IMG/VR virus record: IMGVR_UViG_3300037119_002705
Span: 1-36,736 of that record
Source: a virus
Strand: one strand, 5' to 3'
Length of the DNA: 36,736 bases
Below, piece by piece: positions 7,073 to 29,352 of the stretch. Both the position numbers and the translations under genes were made by a program. The notes beneath the pieces are model-generated. The model saw only the letters and a program-made list of their open reading frames with translations, did no database searches and was not told the origin of the DNA. Within the stretch, counting starts at the first letter, position 1; each line of letters starts with the position of its first letter.

Positions 7073-7270
7073 CTAATTTGTTTTACGTTTTACAGTGTTT
7101 GCAATTTTACTTTCTCTATTACTACTAAAAAGATTAAACCAAACTATAAAATCTCTTTTAATTAATATCCATTTATGTTTGCTGTATTTAGATTTCCTAC
7201 ATTCGGGATTACCAGTATAACAAAGCATGATTGCTCTTAATTTCTTTTTGTCTTTTCTTGTGATTCTCAT
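7073..7270 (-). CDS. Small basic hypothetical protein, 65 aa
   Basis: A Lys/Arg-rich protein (MRITRKDKKKLRAIMLCYTG, later KYSKHKWILIKRDF) without transmembrane segments or recognisable domain. Two Cys residues bracket YTGNPE. The start ATG at 7270 lies 4 nt after the stop of the DUF551-like gene on this strand, which supports the call. The function cannot be read from the sequence. Confidence 0.45.
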   Translation of the reverse strand: MRITRKDKKKLRAIMLCYTGNPECRKSKYSKHKWILIKRDFIVWFNLFSSNRESKIANTVKRKTN

Positions 7271-7755: not shown

Positions 7756-8013
7756 TTAAAAAGGTAATATTTCATTTGACTTAATATTGAAAAGTTTACA
7801 TATTAATTCAAGATTTTTAAGGCTTATTTCCTGCCTACCTTTTTCAATGTTTACGATACTCGCACGACTTAAATTTAATTTGTCTGCGAACTCTTCTTGT
7901 GTTAAAGAATGTGATTTTCTTATTTGTTCCAATCTCCACGCAATAAATTTTTTATAAGTTACGTGTTCTTCAATAACTACTTTCTTTTTAATCGTGTATT
8001 TGTTGCCTTCCAT
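7756..8013 (-). CDS. XRE/Cro-C1-family transcriptional regulator
   Basis: 85 aa with a lambda-repressor-like HTH at about residues 26-83: WRLEQIRKSHSLTQEEFADK, LNLSRASIVNIEKGR (recognition helix), and LELICKLFNIKSNEIL. It lacks a cleavable C-terminal domain, so it resembles small Cro or Xre proteins more than a CI-type repressor. It lies in the middle of the leftward arm rather than at the divergent promoters. It may switch early genes off, or mimic a host antitoxin-type regulator. No operator for it was identified with confidence. Confidence 0.85.
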   Translation of the reverse strand: MEGNKYTIKKKVVIEEHVTYKKFIAWRLEQIRKSHSLTQEEFADKLNLSRASIVNIEKGRQEISLKNLELICKLFNIKSNEILPF

Positions 8014-10552: not shown

Positions 10553-10573
10553 AGATTTATCTTTTTGGTTTGA

Positions 10574-10609
10574 CAAATATAAACATTTATTTTTATATAA
10601 ATAAATAAA
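10574..10609 (-). promoter_or_regulatory. Promoter A with AT-rich near-palindromic element
   Basis: On the minus strand there is a TATATTTG box (10574-10581) followed by TCAAA. Immediately upstream lies a 25-bp AT element (10585-10609) that is identical to 17808-17832 and shares TTTTTATATAAATAAATAAA with 17894-17913. The element has 8-bp inverted arms, ATTTATTT and AAATAAAT, 6 bp apart. No TTG lies at the -33 position. It probably starts the 10552-to-5166 transcript. Confidence 0.65.
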
Positions 10610-10639
10610 AGGCTGTAAACTTTGTTATTTATACTCGTT

Positions 10640-10969
10640 CTAAATAAGTTCTGTTATCTCAAATCTAATAAACTCACTACCTTTTTTTACAATTGTCTTA
10701 GTTGCTATTAGTTTGTAAATTTCACGGTCATCAAATCCGTACTTTTTAACTAAGCAATCTTGAAAAACTTTTAAACAATTATCGAGGTCTTGAAGTTTTG
10801 AAGATAAACCGAACTCTAAAGTTAATTGTAAAGGTGCTTTTTTTGGCTCATATCTCAACGGTAATAAACTTAAAACCGTTTCTGTATAGTTTCTATGTAT
10901 TTGGTTTTTAAATCGCTTTCCTTGGTAGCAACTATTTACGCTTAATGCTTTTATTTTTATTTCGATCAT
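10640..10969 (-). CDS. rusA: RusA-type Holliday junction resolvase
   Basis: 109 aa from ATG 10969. I prefer this to the ATG at 11005 because family members begin just before the LSVN motif. The N-terminus has ALSVNSCYQGKRFK, and the core reads LQDLDNCLKVFQDCLVKKYG then FDDREIYKL. By spacing, D61, D63, K67 and D81 (or D80) correspond to E. coli RusA D70, D72, K76 and D91. RusA dimers cut four-way junctions, here to resolve recombination or branched replication products before packaging. It fits with the exonuclease at 15244-15855 and the replication genes upstream in the same arm. Confidence 0.85.
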   Translation of the reverse strand: MIEIKIKALSVNSCYQGKRFKNQIHRNYTETVLSLLPLRYEPKKAPLQLTLEFGLSSKLQDLDNCLKVFQDCLVKKYGFDDREIYKLIATKTIVKKGSEFIRFEITELI

Positions 10970-13188: not shown

Positions 13189-13842
13189 TTAAAATTTATC
13201 GTTAAAACATTCACCACTCAAATATTCAGAATCTTTAAAGTGTTCTGAAATATATTTACAGCTATGAATAAAATCCATTATTTCTAAATTAGATTTCATT
13301 CTGTTACAATTTTTACAAGAAGGAGTTATATTTGTCGGTATATTTAACCCTGTTTTACTTAAAGGTGCTATATGGTCTAATTCCCATGTTTTATAATCAA
13401 GACTTCTATTGCAATATGAACACTTAAAATTTGTTCTCAATAATGAATCAAAAACATCATTTGAGTTTATTGTTGATATATTACTTACTCTTGAATTGGC
13501 TGAAATAGATTTTTCCAAACATTTAAAACGGAACATTCTTAAATCCGTATGTTTGTTTGATTCGTATTTGATTAGTTTAATTTCGTTAAAAGGTATTCTA
13601 CCTTCTATTAATTTAAATTTAAACCTATATTGTGTTTCATCATCACAGCTTATTTTTTTTTCTCCAAAATATTCTATCATTAGAAAAATAAAATTATAAT
13701 TTTTATGTCCCAACTTAACTTTTGGTACTGTTTTTATAATTTTAATTGGAATGATACGCTCTTTACCCCCATATCTTTTAAAAACATATCCGTCTTTATG
13801 TATGTAGTAACAATCAAAGTCTTTTATTTTACTTATGCTCAC
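13189..13842 (-). CDS. HNH homing-type endonuclease
   Basis: 217 aa from GTG 13842; no ATG is available in frame before a stop. The N-terminal about 60 residues (YYIHKDGYVFKRYGG ... KVKLGHKNYNFIFLMIEYFG) look like the NUMOD4/HNH_3-type 'IS..G.V' DNA-binding module. The nuclease lies at 141-184: CSYCNRSL, then ELDHIAPLSKTG, then NITPSCKNCNRMKS (C141, C144, D156, H157, N171, C176, C179, N180). All metal and catalytic positions are present. It probably cuts competing phage DNA or drives its own spread. The start codon is part of a complex leader (13843-13960). Confidence 0.8.
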   Translation of the reverse strand: MSISKIKDFDCYYIHKDGYVFKRYGGKERIIPIKIIKTVPKVKLGHKNYNFIFLMIEYFGEKKISCDDETQYRFKFKLIEGRIPFNEIKLIKYESNKHTDLRMFRFKCLEKSISANSRVSNISTINSNDVFDSLLRTNFKCSYCNRSLDYKTWELDHIAPLSKTGLNIPTNITPSCKNCNRMKSNLEIMDFIHSCKYISEHFKDSEYLSGECFNDKF

Positions 13843-13959: not shown

Positions 13960-13992
13960 CAAATATACAAATTTATTTCATTCGTAATACAA
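13960..13992 (-). promoter_or_regulatory. Bacteroidetes-type promoter before the HNH leader
   Basis: On the minus strand there is TTG (13990-13992), a 22-nt spacer, and TATATTTG (13960-13967). Both elements and the spacing fit the Bacteroidetes consensus TTG-N17-23-TAnnTTTG. The start of transcription would lie at about 13953-13956, immediately before the 8-codon mini-ORF. Confidence 0.65.
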
Positions 13993-14014
13993 AGAAAATC
14001 TATTTATAATCATT

Positions 14015-14389
14015 CTAAATAACTGTATTGTTATCCAGCACATCATTTAAATAATCTCTAAGTTTAGACACATCTTTTTTATCCCAAACTACAAACACAT
14101 CAGAATCTTCATAAAGACCGTCACGACCACCACAATGTAAATCTGTTTGAAACTCTTGATAAGTGTCTCTTAAATTTAATTGATAGTCTAAAGCATCACC
14201 TCCGTCCATTATTTCATTTGGAAATCCGTGTTCAGAAATTAAATCTTGTTCAACCCAATCGTTAGTGAATTCTTCACCACTAGTTTTACAAAAAAGACCA
14301 CACATTAACTCACCGTGTTCTTTGTTTATTTTTGAGTAAATAGTGTTTTCAGGTAATTTAATAAAATCGACTCTTTTATATGCTTTCAT
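14015..14389 (-). CDS. Hypothetical protein, 124 aa
   Basis: An acidic soluble protein. The start (YKRVDFIKLPENTIYSKINK) resembles the 'F.KLP.GTIYSKY' opening of small phage proteins of unknown role. Later it has DGGDALDYQLNLRDTYQEFQ and a CGGRDGLYEDSDVFVVWDKK segment. No catalytic signature is recognised. It is the last gene before the promoter and leader of the HNH gene. Confidence 0.55.
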   Translation of the reverse strand: MKAYKRVDFIKLPENTIYSKINKEHGELMCGLFCKTSGEEFTNDWVEQDLISEHGFPNEIMDGGDALDYQLNLRDTYQEFQTDLHCGGRDGLYEDSDVFVVWDKKDVSKLRDYLNDVLDNNTVI

Positions 14390-17773: not shown

Positions 17774-17796
17774 AATTATTTCGTATTTGTATGTGA

Positions 17797-17832
17797 CAAA
17801 GATAAGTATTTATTTTTATATAAATAAATAAA
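17797..17832 (-). promoter_or_regulatory. Promoter B (leftward) with AT-rich near-palindrome
   Basis: A minus-strand TATCTTTG box (17797-17804) lies 23 nt before the ATG at 17773. The 25-bp AT element (17808-17832) immediately upstream is identical to the one at promoter A. No TTG stands at the -33 position. It should drive the whole leftward early arm. Confidence 0.65.
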
Positions 17833-17893
17833 TAAGGTTAAATAGTTGTAATTTAGAATGAATATAAATAACAAAATAATTTCACTTAGTATA

Positions 17894-17923
17894 TTTTTAT
17901 ATAAATAAATAAATGTATATTTG
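17894..17923 (+). promoter_or_regulatory. Promoter C (rightward) with AT-rich near-palindrome
   Basis: TTTTTATATAAATAAATAAA (17894-17913) precedes TATATTTG (17916-17923), followed by TCAAA as at promoter A. The ATG of the regulator gene is at 17940. Together with promoter B it forms the divergent early control region, with about 62 bp between the two AT elements. Confidence 0.65.
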
Positions 17924-17939
17924 TCAAAAAATTAGATCA

Positions 17940-18110
17940 ATGGGAAGGAATAAAATAGAAGACAAGAAACAAACAGTTCCAGTTGGAATTGAAACTTCAA
18001 TCATTAATAAGCTTGGTGGTGTCGATGGTGCGAAAAATACACTTTATAAATTGGCTCACAAGGAAGCTTTAAAAACTAAAGGCAATGATAAAGAAACCAA
18101 AAAAACCTAA
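17940..18110 (+). CDS. Ribbon-helix-helix-like regulator, 56 aa
   Basis: The start is ATG 17940 (MGRNKIEDKKQ); an upstream in-frame ATG at 17913 overlaps the -7 box and is excluded. The sequence KKQTVPVGIETSIINKLGGV, then DGAKNTLYKLAHKEAL, has a short basic strand followed by two helices. This is the plan of Arc/CopG RHH proteins, which bind short palindromes as dimers. It is the first rightward gene next to two palindromic promoter elements, so it is a candidate for their regulator. The fold is inferred, not proven. Confidence 0.5.
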   Translation: MGRNKIEDKKQTVPVGIETSIINKLGGVDGAKNTLYKLAHKEALKTKGNDKETKKT

Positions 18111-18251: not shown

Positions 18252-18548
18252 ATGGAAAATTTAATCGGAAAAAAAGTAATCGTAAGAGCTGACAGAGCGG
18301 GCGTGTTTTACGGAACACTATCAATAAAAGAAGGAAGCGAAGTTCAACTAACTAATGTTAGAAAATTATTCTATTGGTCGGGAGCTGCTGCAATTGAACA
18401 ATTAGCAGAAGAAGGTGTTGCTAATCCAAAAGGGTGTCAGTTTACAGTTGTAAATAAAGAGATTACAGTTTTAGGTGTGATTCAAATAAACCCTTGTACT
18501 GAACAAGCTATCGCTAATATCGAAAACGTGCCAGTATGGAAAAAATAG
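18252..18548 (+). CDS. DUF6948-like conserved protein
   Basis: 98 aa. The pattern is KKVIVRADRAGVFYGTL, then VRKLFYWSGAAAIEQLAEEG, ANPKGCQFTV, and AIANIENVPVW at the end. This is the DUF6948-type family, common in Bacteroidetes phages and almost always encoded before a Gly-repeat protein like the next gene. The stop lies inside the next gene (13-nt overlap). The role is unknown; the conserved pairing suggests that the two proteins act together. Confidence 0.7.
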   Translation: MENLIGKKVIVRADRAGVFYGTLSIKEGSEVQLTNVRKLFYWSGAAAIEQLAEEGVANPKGCQFTVVNKEITVLGVIQINPCTEQAIANIENVPVWKK

Positions 18549-19231
18549 AAAAGTTTGTAAGAATCGGTTCCGGTGACGGTTCCGGTTACGGTTCCGGTTC
18601 CGGTTCCGGTTCCGGTTCCGGTTACGGTTCCGGTTCCGGTTACGGTTCCGGTGACGGTTACGGTGACGGTTCCGGTTCCGGTTACGGTTCCGGTTCCGGT
18701 TACGGTTCCGGTTACGGTTACGGTGACGGTTCCGGTTCCGGTTCCGGTTACGGTTCCGGTGACGGTTCCGGTTTAAAAACTTTAAATAACCAAAAGATTT
18801 ATTTAATCGATGGTATTCAGACAATTATTAAATCGGTAAAAGGAAATATTGCAAAAGGTTTTATTGTACAAAGTGATTTAAGTTTGACGCTTTGTTTTAT
18901 AGCTAAAGGTGAAAATAAATTTGCTCATGGTGAAACAACAGAAGAAGCTATTTCACAACTTCAAAATAAATTATTAGAAGATTTATCTACGGAAGAAAGG
19001 ATTGAAAAATTTAAAAATCACTTCAATGAAAACGATAAATACAAAGCTATTGAATTTTATAATTGGCATACAATTTTAACGGGTAGTTGCGATTTAGGTA
19101 AAAAATCATTCGTAAAAGATAAAAATATTGATTTGGAAAATGATTCATTTACGGTTATTGAGTTCATTAAAATAGTAGAAAATAATTACGGTCAAGATGT
19201 AATTTCACAATTAAAGAAAATTTACATTTAA
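18536..19231 (+). CDS. Hexamer-repeat (GS/GY/GD)n protein with conserved C-terminal domain
   Basis: 231 aa. Residues 11-78 are 34 Gly-X dipeptides (20 Gly-Ser, 9 Gly-Tyr, 5 Gly-Asp), an unstructured and possibly sticky arm. The C-terminal about 150 residues form a conserved domain: QKIYLIDGIQTIIKSVKGN, AKGFIVQSDLSL, KFAHGETTEEAISQLQNKL, then FYNWHTILTGSCDLGKKSFV and FTVIEFIKIVENNYGQDVIS. I recognise this domain and the variable Gly repeat from Bacteroidetes phage proteins, without a known function. It is the last gene of the rightward early unit and is followed by a terminator. Confidence 0.75.
   Translation: MEKIEKFVRIGSGDGSGYGSGSGSGSGSGYGSGSGYGSGDGYGDGSGSGYGSGSGYGSGYGYGDGSGSGSGYGSGDGSGLKTLNNQKIYLIDGIQTIIKSVKGNIAKGFIVQSDLSLTLCFIAKGENKFAHGETTEEAISQLQNKLLEDLSTEERIEKFKNHFNENDKYKAIEFYNWHTILTGSCDLGKKSFVKDKNIDLENDSFTVIEFIKIVENNYGQDVISQLKKIYI
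18566..18769 (+). repeat. 34-copy hexanucleotide microsatellite
   Basis: These are uninterrupted hexamers of GGTTCC (20), GGTTAC (9) or GGTGAC (5). Only positions 4 and 5 vary; every Gly is GGT, and every second codon ends in C. The tract is GC-richer than the surrounding AT-rich DNA. Six-base units keep the frame when copies are gained or lost. Confidence 0.97.
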
Positions 19232-26992: not shown

Positions 26993-29352
26993 ATGCGAAG
27001 TTAATTTGTAACGGCACTCAGTTGGATTTAGTGGAAGGATTACCATTCCCTTTGAATTACAGTATTTCAGATGTTAAAGAGCCTCAAAAAAGAAAACGTA
27101 ATTTATCTAAGTCGATTACATTAGTCGGTACAAATAACAATTTAAACTTTTTCTCATCTACATATCAACTTTCATTAACCGATTTAAATGGTGACAGCAC
27201 GGGCTTTAATTTTGATCCAACGAAAAGAGTAGAAGCGAAATACTATAAAGGTGATATTTTAGTTTTTGATGGATTACTTCAATTAAACGAGGTTGAAATT
27301 AACGATGGAAACTATTATTTTTCGTGTACAATGTTTTCAAACTTTGTGGATTTGTTCCTTCAACTAGGTGAACGAACTGTTGCTGAATTGGGCTGGTCTG
27401 AATACGACCACGCTTTGACTAGAACTATTGTTAAAAATAGCTGGGACACTTCGGTTATGGTTAACGGTGTTGCTACAAGTAATTTTACAGCAGGAGTCCC
27501 GCAGGGATTTGGATATGTTTATCCGTTGGTTGATTACGGGTATAACACAATTCCAACAACTTTTGGAATAAATAATTTAGTGCCTTTAATTTATTGTAAG
27601 GAAATTGTAGAAAAATGTTTTGCAGTCGCTGGACTTACATTTGATTCAAATCACATTAACAGCGATTTATTTAAAAAGCTTGTGTTTGGCTTTGAGGGTG
27701 GCAAAAGGCGAGTGCTAACAACGGCACAAATAAACGCTAGACATTTAGAAGCTGAAGGTGATTTCATGTTAAATAGCAATCTAGCGTTTTCACAAAACTA
27801 TCCATTCAATAACAGAATTTACACTCAGGATTCAGTAATTGGTTTCCTTACGGGTCGTACAAGTGGAGGTTTAACAACCACAACAATAGATGACCCTAGT
27901 GGTATAATTGCACAATCAAGCCCTGGTCTTTTACAATATGTAAATCTAGCAGGAACTTACAAGATGACTGTTACAGGTTCATTTCAACAAACGTTAACTT
28001 TAGCTGGTGATCAAACTTATGTTGGCGGTAATCATGGATTCGTTATTGAGTTTCTAAAATATGGTTCTGTTATAGACACATTTACTGTAATGTCAAACAA
28101 TGGAGATTTAGTTGTTGGAGCGAATTACACTAAAACATTTGAATACAGCACAAACAATAATAACAGTATATTCACGTCAATTCGAGTTAGAAGAGTTGTA
28201 AATTTAGTTATTAATGGTGTAACTCAAACAATAGACTTTACAGATGAAACACCAATACCGTTTGCTTATGAAATAACTTGTCTTGATGGAACATTAAACG
28301 ACGGGAGTACGGTTACTTTATCGCCTGTTATTCCTGACATGAAGGCAAAGGATTTTATGGAGGACATGATTAAGGCTTTTAATTGGTATATTTCGGACCC
28401 TGACATTTTCAACGTTTCAAAGATTGAGCCATTAAATGATTTTTACCAAGCAACAACAGAGTTTGACGATTGGTCACAATTAATAGACAAAAGTAAAAGT
28501 ATCAAGATTTTACCAGCATCAACGATTGATGGTAAAGTTTATCAATTCTCGTTCCAGCAAGAAGATGACTACGACAATAAAAGGTATCAAGATGAATTTA
28601 ACCAACGTTACGGAGACTTTGATTACATAGTTGAAAGTACTTATCAAAACACTACGCGAAAATACGAACTTAGATTTGGTCAAGCCGTACCGATTGAATT
28701 AGTGAATAGTGATATCGTACTGCCAAGGATAGTAAAACTTGAAAACAACGCTTATATTCCATACAGAGGTAAACCAAAGATTTATTTCTATAACGGATTA
28801 AAGACAGGTGATTTCAGATTAACAAATGTATTACCAGCTGGAGGAAGTGAAGATTTAATAAGTTATCCTTGTGTGCATCATTTTGATGATTTTGAAAACC
28901 CAACATTTGATTTTAATTGGGGGCTTCCAAAAAGGATTTATTACGGTAACATGGACACAATTGTTACAACTAATAATCTTTATTATGCGCATCATGACAA
29001 GTTTATTCGAGAATTAACAGGTAAGGATAGTAAAATTTTACAATGCTATGTTAAGTTCTCGTCTCAAATGGTAAACACTTTAGATTACAGTAAGTTGAAA
29101 ATGTGGAACGGTGTTCTTTACAGGCTTAATGAAATAAAAGATTTTGATTCTGACGTTGCTGAAAGTACATTTGTTGAACTTGTTAGAATAATTGAGGCTG
29201 AAAACCCTATAAATTTGCAAGGATTAGGTGAAGCCACGGGAGAGCAAACGGTTGGTTTAATGAGTGGGGGAACTGATGTTGATGAAGATACTAATGTTGT
29301 TTTTGGTGGCATTGGAGTTAGTAGAAATAGTGAAATTTTAACAGGTGGATAA
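26989..29352 (+). CDS. Large tail tip/baseplate hub-like protein, 787 aa
   Basis: This is the largest predicted virion protein. The N-terminus (AKLICNGTQLDLVEGLPFPL, VKEPQKRKRNLSKSITLVGT, then GDILVFDGLLQLNEVEI) matches the start of large tail proteins in Bacteroidetes phages. The central part is beta-rich; after about residue 440 there is DMKAKDFMEDMIKAFNWYIS, resembling the hub domain that follows a DUF-type tail module. The C-terminus is Gly-rich. It is likely part of the tail tip complex. It overlaps the next ATG by 1 nt (TAATG). Confidence 0.6.
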   Translation: MNAKLICNGTQLDLVEGLPFPLNYSISDVKEPQKRKRNLSKSITLVGTNNNLNFFSSTYQLSLTDLNGDSTGFNFDPTKRVEAKYYKGDILVFDGLLQLNEVEINDGNYYFSCTMFSNFVDLFLQLGERTVAELGWSEYDHALTRTIVKNSWDTSVMVNGVATSNFTAGVPQGFGYVYPLVDYGYNTIPTTFGINNLVPLIYCKEIVEKCFAVAGLTFDSNHINSDLFKKLVFGFEGGKRRVLTTAQINARHLEAEGDFMLNSNLAFSQNYPFNNRIYTQDSVIGFLTGRTSGGLTTTTIDDPSGIIAQSSPGLLQYVNLAGTYKMTVTGSFQQTLTLAGDQTYVGGNHGFVIEFLKYGSVIDTFTVMSNNGDLVVGANYTKTFEYSTNNNNSIFTSIRVRRVVNLVINGVTQTIDFTDETPIPFAYEITCLDGTLNDGSTVTLSPVIPDMKAKDFMEDMIKAFNWYISDPDIFNVSKIEPLNDFYQATTEFDDWSQLIDKSKSIKILPASTIDGKVYQFSFQQEDDYDNKRYQDEFNQRYGDFDYIVESTYQNTTRKYELRFGQAVPIELVNSDIVLPRIVKLENNAYIPYRGKPKIYFYNGLKTGDFRLTNVLPAGGSEDLISYPCVHHFDDFENPTFDFNWGLPKRIYYGNMDTIVTTNNLYYAHHDKFIRELTGKDSKILQCYVKFSSQMVNTLDYSKLKMWNGVLYRLNEIKDFDSDVAESTFVELVRIIEAENPINLQGLGEATGEQTVGLMSGGTDVDEDTNVVFGGIGVSRNSEILTGG

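Follow-up and report, generated by a model that had tools for sequence, protein, structure and literature searches.

Promoters of the window and the shared AT-rich element

The question raised by this locus is how transcription is started at three phage promoters that carry a -7 box of the Bacteroidetes type, share an AT-rich element and have no TTG at -33. The window (the whole stretch of viral DNA that was analysed, 36,736 nt) carries promoters A and B on the minus strand and promoter C on the plus strand. Promoter A (-7 box TATATTTG, 10574-10581) heads a leftward operon that includes an XRE gene, promoter B (TATCTTTG, 17797-17804) heads the leftward operon with the recombination and replication genes, and promoter C (TATATTTG, 17916-17923) heads the rightward operon. 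A fourth promoter, D (TATATTTG, 13960-13967, minus strand), lies 5' of an HNH endonuclease gene (13189-13842) and is without the AT element. The TAnnTTTG box shortly before each start codon resembles that of the Bacteroidetes primary sigma promoters (-33 TTG, -7 TAnnTTTG), but A-C lack the -33 TTG: as the preliminary description of this DNA had stated, no TTG was found at the corresponding position (~17-23 nt 5' of the box) in any of the three spacers. A, B and C look like real promoters.

The 20-mer TTTTTATATAAATAAATAAA was found exactly three times in the window, starting at 10590, 17813 and 17894, always on the plus strand (chance expectation from shuffles at ≤3 mismatches: 0.25 matches). 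AT elements A (10585-10609) and B (17808-17832) are identical across 25 bp, a 22-bp imperfect palindrome ATTTATTTTTATATAAATAAAT plus AAA, and AT element C covers 17894-17913. Among the spacers of these three promoters, the longest shared string measures 22 nt; 5000 composition-preserving shuffles gave none longer than 13. Every copy adjoins the sequence TAnnTTTGTCA (10571-10581 and 17794-17804 on the minus strand, 17916-17926 on the plus strand), so the earlier account of a shared element directly 5' of a TAnnTTTG box followed by TCA, with 25-bp identity between the first two copies, was correct.

Copies B and C lie in a direct repeat on the plus strand with one 2-bp indel (17805-17833, 29 bp; 17888-17914, 27 bp), and the sense of the AT element relative to its promoter is therefore reversed in C compared with A and B. 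The element, of 96% A+T, covers the spacer and the -33 region, and its orientation is reversed in C, whereas an UP element has a fixed orientation and lies at about -40 to -60. The box and the centre of the element are 14.5 nt apart in A and B and ~16.5 nt apart in C. In each of the three promoters, A+T makes up 96% of the 26 nt that immediately precede the box, a share at the upper end of what was seen in 115 peer phage promoters (median 77%).

As to the inverted arms described earlier, the element forms a 22-bp inverted repeat (ATTTATTT-T-TATA-T-AAATAAAT) with one position unpaired in A and B, and the palindrome is real there and weaker in C: 10 of 11 positions pair in A and B and 9 of 11 in C, with shuffle p values of 0.004 (A), 0.015 (B) and 0.08 (C). 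In nearly AT-only DNA this symmetry is suggestive and not strong evidence. The GC-skew minimum lies near 17.8 kb, but the idea that the copies are replication iterons there was set aside, because copy A is 7 kb away and the skew tracks gene direction.

Fur-box-like repeats upstream of the promoters

A second motif had been overlooked in the preliminary description. Boxes A, B and C are preceded by a 19-bp inverted repeat, ATTTAGAAYnAnTATAAAT, whose centre is 55 nt upstream of A and 56 nt upstream of both B and C (in the upstream alignment the motif reads TTTAGAAYnAnTATAAATA, at 10626-10644 and 14001-14019 on the minus strand and 17852-17870 on the plus strand). The repeat of promoter A is ATTTAGAACGAGTATAAAT (10627-10645, minus strand; 55 nt from the box). 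The divergent promoters B and C have one repeat in common, ATTTAGAATGAATATAAAT (17851-17869, plus strand), exactly 56 nt from each box. At promoter D (box 13967), the repeat ATTTAGAATGATTATAAAT (14002-14020, minus strand) is centred 44 nt upstream.

The repeat resembles the Fur box of the flavobacterium Riemerella anatipestifer, ATTTAGAATTATTCTAAAT, which was tested by gel shift (PMC5609570); the Fur box of R. anatipestifer rhuB is ATTTAGAATTATCCTAAAT (PMC10986502). Both are 19-bp inverted repeats, and the window sites are 1-3 positions off. When the window was scanned with the R. anatipestifer consensus (≤3 mismatches, centre base left free), exactly three matches were obtained, all at promoters, where 0.16 were expected; they fit ATTTAGAATnATTCTAAAT with 1 (D), 2 (B and C) and 3 (A) mismatches. 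The published box differs in being a host repressor site near the start of iron-uptake genes, whereas the window sites are phased and lie upstream of -33 (PMC5609570, PMC10986502).

No fur gene is encoded in the window, and a phage-encoded Fur was rejected as the binder for that reason. Within the same phylum, the Crp-like global activator BT4338/Cur of Bacteroides likewise has a palindromic site, wwwTATGTTnTAnAACATAwww (PMC3878776), but this is a different sequence that the window motif does not fit; on sequence, Crp/Cur was thus ruled out as the protein that uses the upstream repeat.

Orthologous promoters and relatives

Promoter C was compared with its counterparts through the DUF6948 gene on its 3' side (18252-18548, plus strand), whose orthologues in L407/L408 (71%) and L409 (59%) have Fur-box promoters without the AT element. 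In L407/L408 the motif lies at 55 nt, directly 5' of the DUF6948 orthologue, with TTG-N19-TATATTTG. In L409 the orthologous promoter has the R. anatipestifer Fur consensus unchanged, at 44 nt, with TTGACA and TAAATTTG. The AT element was not found in these orthologous promoters (best match with 4-5 mismatches), and the fourth and most distant DUF6948 locus (L410) has neither the Fur-like site nor the AT element.

Relatives were also searched with other proteins. Among YqaJ relatives only L004 is close (61%); this distant relative has the motif twice, once with 1 mismatch, Fur-like sites stand upstream of its boxes, and the AT element is absent. The first leftward protein, the RHH-like protein and the terminase gave no relatives in viral_contigs or genome_contigs. 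The pattern ATTT-N-TATA-N-AAATAAAT-N0-8-TAnnTTTG, which combines the AT element with the box, was matched by 8 viral stretches only, several of them in coding-like sequence, and a Fur-like motif at a promoter was found in none of the 8. Neither this pattern search nor the orthologous promoters yielded a second phage with the AT element at a promoter.

In the orthologous promoters of L407-L409, the Fur-like site and the box are thus conserved and the AT element is not. The preliminary description had proposed that the AT element marks a phage-specific promoter class, to be recognised by the element standing beside the boxes of related phages; L407/L408 and L409 keep the box and the Fur box and lack the element, and the proposal was abandoned. 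Its suggestion that a dimeric helper replaces the -33 contact survives in part: a dimeric protein is likely, but the AT element as its site has no cross-phage support. Judged by these comparisons, it is the Fur-box-like repeat at 55-56 nt, rather than the AT element, that other phages support as a putative dimer site.

The phage of L409 has its own -33 block, parallel to the AT element of the window: in three of its promoters (L420-L422) a Fur-like site is accompanied by a common phage-specific block, TA(C/T)TTGACAANNGTAAA-like, around TTGACA over -33. In the phage promoters L088, L105, L129 and L073, which have a Fur-like site, AAAGTTTGGTRG or a near variant is found at -33, apparently within an inverted repeat.

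Distribution and helical phasing among phages

The motif followed by TAnnTTTG was found in more than 119 viral stretches, and in 68 in the reverse orientation. The forward scan required a box on the same strand, 25-55 nt downstream. For the phase analysis, near-duplicates were removed by clustering at 75% identity. Among the nonredundant centre distances, 111 of 129 fall at 43-46, 53-57 or 63-66 nt (Rayleigh R=0.675 at 10.5 bp, p ~1e-26, a value that assumes independent sites after clustering, which is only roughly true, a few divergent pairs sharing one site). These windows (about 44, 55 and 65 nt) are ~10.5 nt apart, and the distances in the present phage are 55, 56 and 56 nt for A-C and 44 nt for D. 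On the other side of the forward-scan sites, where boxes had not been selected for distance, 9 of 10 lay at 39-40, 44-46 or 56-57 nt, a number too small for a separate phase test; decoy boxes were rare.

A TTG at 18-21 nt was present in 62 of the 115 peer phage promoters bearing a Fur-like site (9.5 expected by shuffle). About half of the peer promoters are without it, as activator-dependent promoters may be.

Five cultured flavobacterial phages were checked. Cellulophaga phi10:1 has a Fur-like site at 29114, with boxes 44 and 66 nt away on the two strands, and another at 51055, 56 nt from its box; the DNA similarity between the window and this phage falls in a coiled-coil gene. Elizabethkingia TCUEAP1 has a Fur-like site at 7154, 45 nt from the box. 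No site was found in FPSV-S2 and elemoA, and RAP44 has a weak site without a box, so the architecture is not universal.

Host promoters with the same motif

Matches to the motif and box pattern in genome_contigs come almost only from Bacteroidota. The downstream gene is nqrA in 63 of 106 host matches (L160-L276), always with the motif at 54-57 or 65-66 nt; nqrA was called by its N-terminal signature, and two calls were confirmed with TIGR01936. Other host genes in phase are nuoA (64 nt), sdhC (b558, 45 nt), RseC (66 nt) and ferredoxins (56 and 66 nt). The motif also stands upstream of host iron-uptake genes (TonB receptors, imelysin, DUF4856 lipoproteins and FeoAB), and for TonB receptors, imelysin and DUF4856 lipoproteins it is mostly at 36-38 nt. 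The split is imperfect, with one FeoAB match at 50 nt and some Crocinitomicaceae lipoproteins at 48-51 nt. The distances of the phage sites follow the phases of the respiratory genes.

Candidate phage regulators

Two phage proteins were considered as ligands of the AT element. The XRE/HTH_3 regulator (7756-8013, minus strand) is a solid HTH_3 match (E 5.5e-15). The first rightward ORF (17940-18110, plus strand; 56 aa) looks RHH-like by sequence only; its structural model has two helices, a pLDDT of 75 and no PDB match, and an RHH fold was not accepted from a model so small and uncertain. Of the two, the XRE protein is the better-supported candidate. The ORF at 18536-19231, adjoining the DUF6948 gene, contains a long low-complexity repeat of the GSGYGSGDG type.

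Proposed mechanism and alternatives

At promoters A-C, the Fur-like site is probably bound by host Fur, or by a protein with the same site, which would activate from upstream, with the AT block as a phage-specific addition over -33. We infer Fur binding, activation, iron dependence and any role of the AT block from the sequence patterns described above. In the proposed mechanism, host RNA polymerase would read the three promoters of a Flavobacteriales phage, each of them tripartite: a TAnnTTTG -7 box, an AT-rich block that replaces the TTG, and a Fur-box-like repeat centred 55-56 nt upstream. A dimer of host Fur, or of another protein with the same site, would bind the repeat, on the helix face that RNA polymerase also occupies, and activate transcription by contact with the polymerase, as appears to be the case for nqrA, nuoA and sdhC; at the divergent pair B and C, a single dimer could act on both promoters. 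The AT block would probably ease opening of the weak -33 region, and a phage regulator, for instance the XRE protein, may in addition use it as an operator. More tentatively, with the chances a little short of even, A-C may exemplify a widespread class of Flavobacteriales phage promoters, at which host Fur would be a phased class I activator, core operons would fire when iron is replete, and one dimer would drive two divergent operons.

Fur is known mostly as a repressor, and site A is 3 positions off the consensus; both points count against activation by Fur. The direct opposite, that Fur represses at the phage sites and that the promoters fire when iron is scarce, draws on repression of iron-uptake genes by Fur through the same box in this bacterial order (PMC10986502). 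We regard it as improbable: the uptake genes mostly have the box at 36-38 nt, over -33, whereas the phage sites stand at 44, 55 and 65 nt on one helix face, as at nqrA, and contact with polymerase fits this arrangement better than blocking does. It is also unlikely that the respiratory and phage promoters are activated by a regulator other than Fur with an overlapping recognition sequence. Such a protein is suggested by the R. anatipestifer sdh and NADH-dehydrogenase genes, whose expression is lower under iron restriction in a fur deletion strain too (PMC5609570), so that Fur alone does not account for their iron response and the site may serve another protein. Against it stand the perfect published Fur consensus in the orthologous promoter of L409 and the single Fur-family gene reported in F. 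psychrophilum (PMC9331221).

Two further explanations concern the AT element. It is quite possible, though we would not favour it outright, that the element is the operator of a phage dimeric repressor (XRE or RHH-like) that shuts A, B and C via -33, the Fur-like site setting only the basal level. This would account for the presence of three nearly identical copies across the spacer and -33, for the use of both orientations, as a dimer would allow, and for the HTH_3 protein encoded within the promoter A operon; at least 9 paired positions were found in just 1 of the 115 other phage promoters. AT-only DNA is easily palindromic, however (p=0.08 in C), and the centre-to-box distance differs between A and B (14.5 nt) and C (~16.5 nt). 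Such an operator is compatible with activation from the Fur-like site, and both could hold. With slightly more doubt, the element can be taken as a UP-like or easily melted AT-rich spacer, or as a recently duplicated promoter cassette, without a protein of its own. The 96% A+T before all three boxes is in keeping with this, as are A and B, which look like a duplicated cassette, and the direct repeat of B and C; but a UP element should hold one orientation and C is reversed, and the 22 common nucleotides exceed every shuffle.

Relation to known systems and implications

Activation from the upstream repeat may be compared with class I activator-dependent promoters, at which E. coli CRP is centred at -61.5, -71.5 or -82.5. 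The window likewise has a dimer site upstream of polymerase at distances one helix turn apart, but the protein would be another one, and, with absolute distances measured from the -10/-7 element, the sites are out of step with the CRP positions by about half a turn. The stx1 promoter of Shiga toxin phages is also a phage-borne promoter under the host iron regulator Fur; there a cargo gene is repressed, whereas in the window core phage operons appear to be activated. Text searches of the open-access literature turned up no earlier account of phage promoters, or of nqr, with a Fur box or under Fur control in this phylum.

The Fur-like sites before many Flavobacteriales phage promoters suggest that these phages tie expression to the iron status of the host. 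If this is true, many phages of a major order of marine and freshwater bacteria would take host iron status as an input during infection, and iron would be read through a host protein, not a phage one. The Fur regulon would then have an activating half, with a position code of 36-38 nt for uptake genes and 44/55/65 nt for respiratory genes and phages. The cultured phages that bear the motif, Cellulophaga phi10:1 and Elizabethkingia TCUEAP1, make this reading testable. In phi10:1, the boxes that flank the site at 29114-29132 (L415/L418) lie downstream of the annotated starts of gp067 and gp068, and these two gene annotations may be too long.
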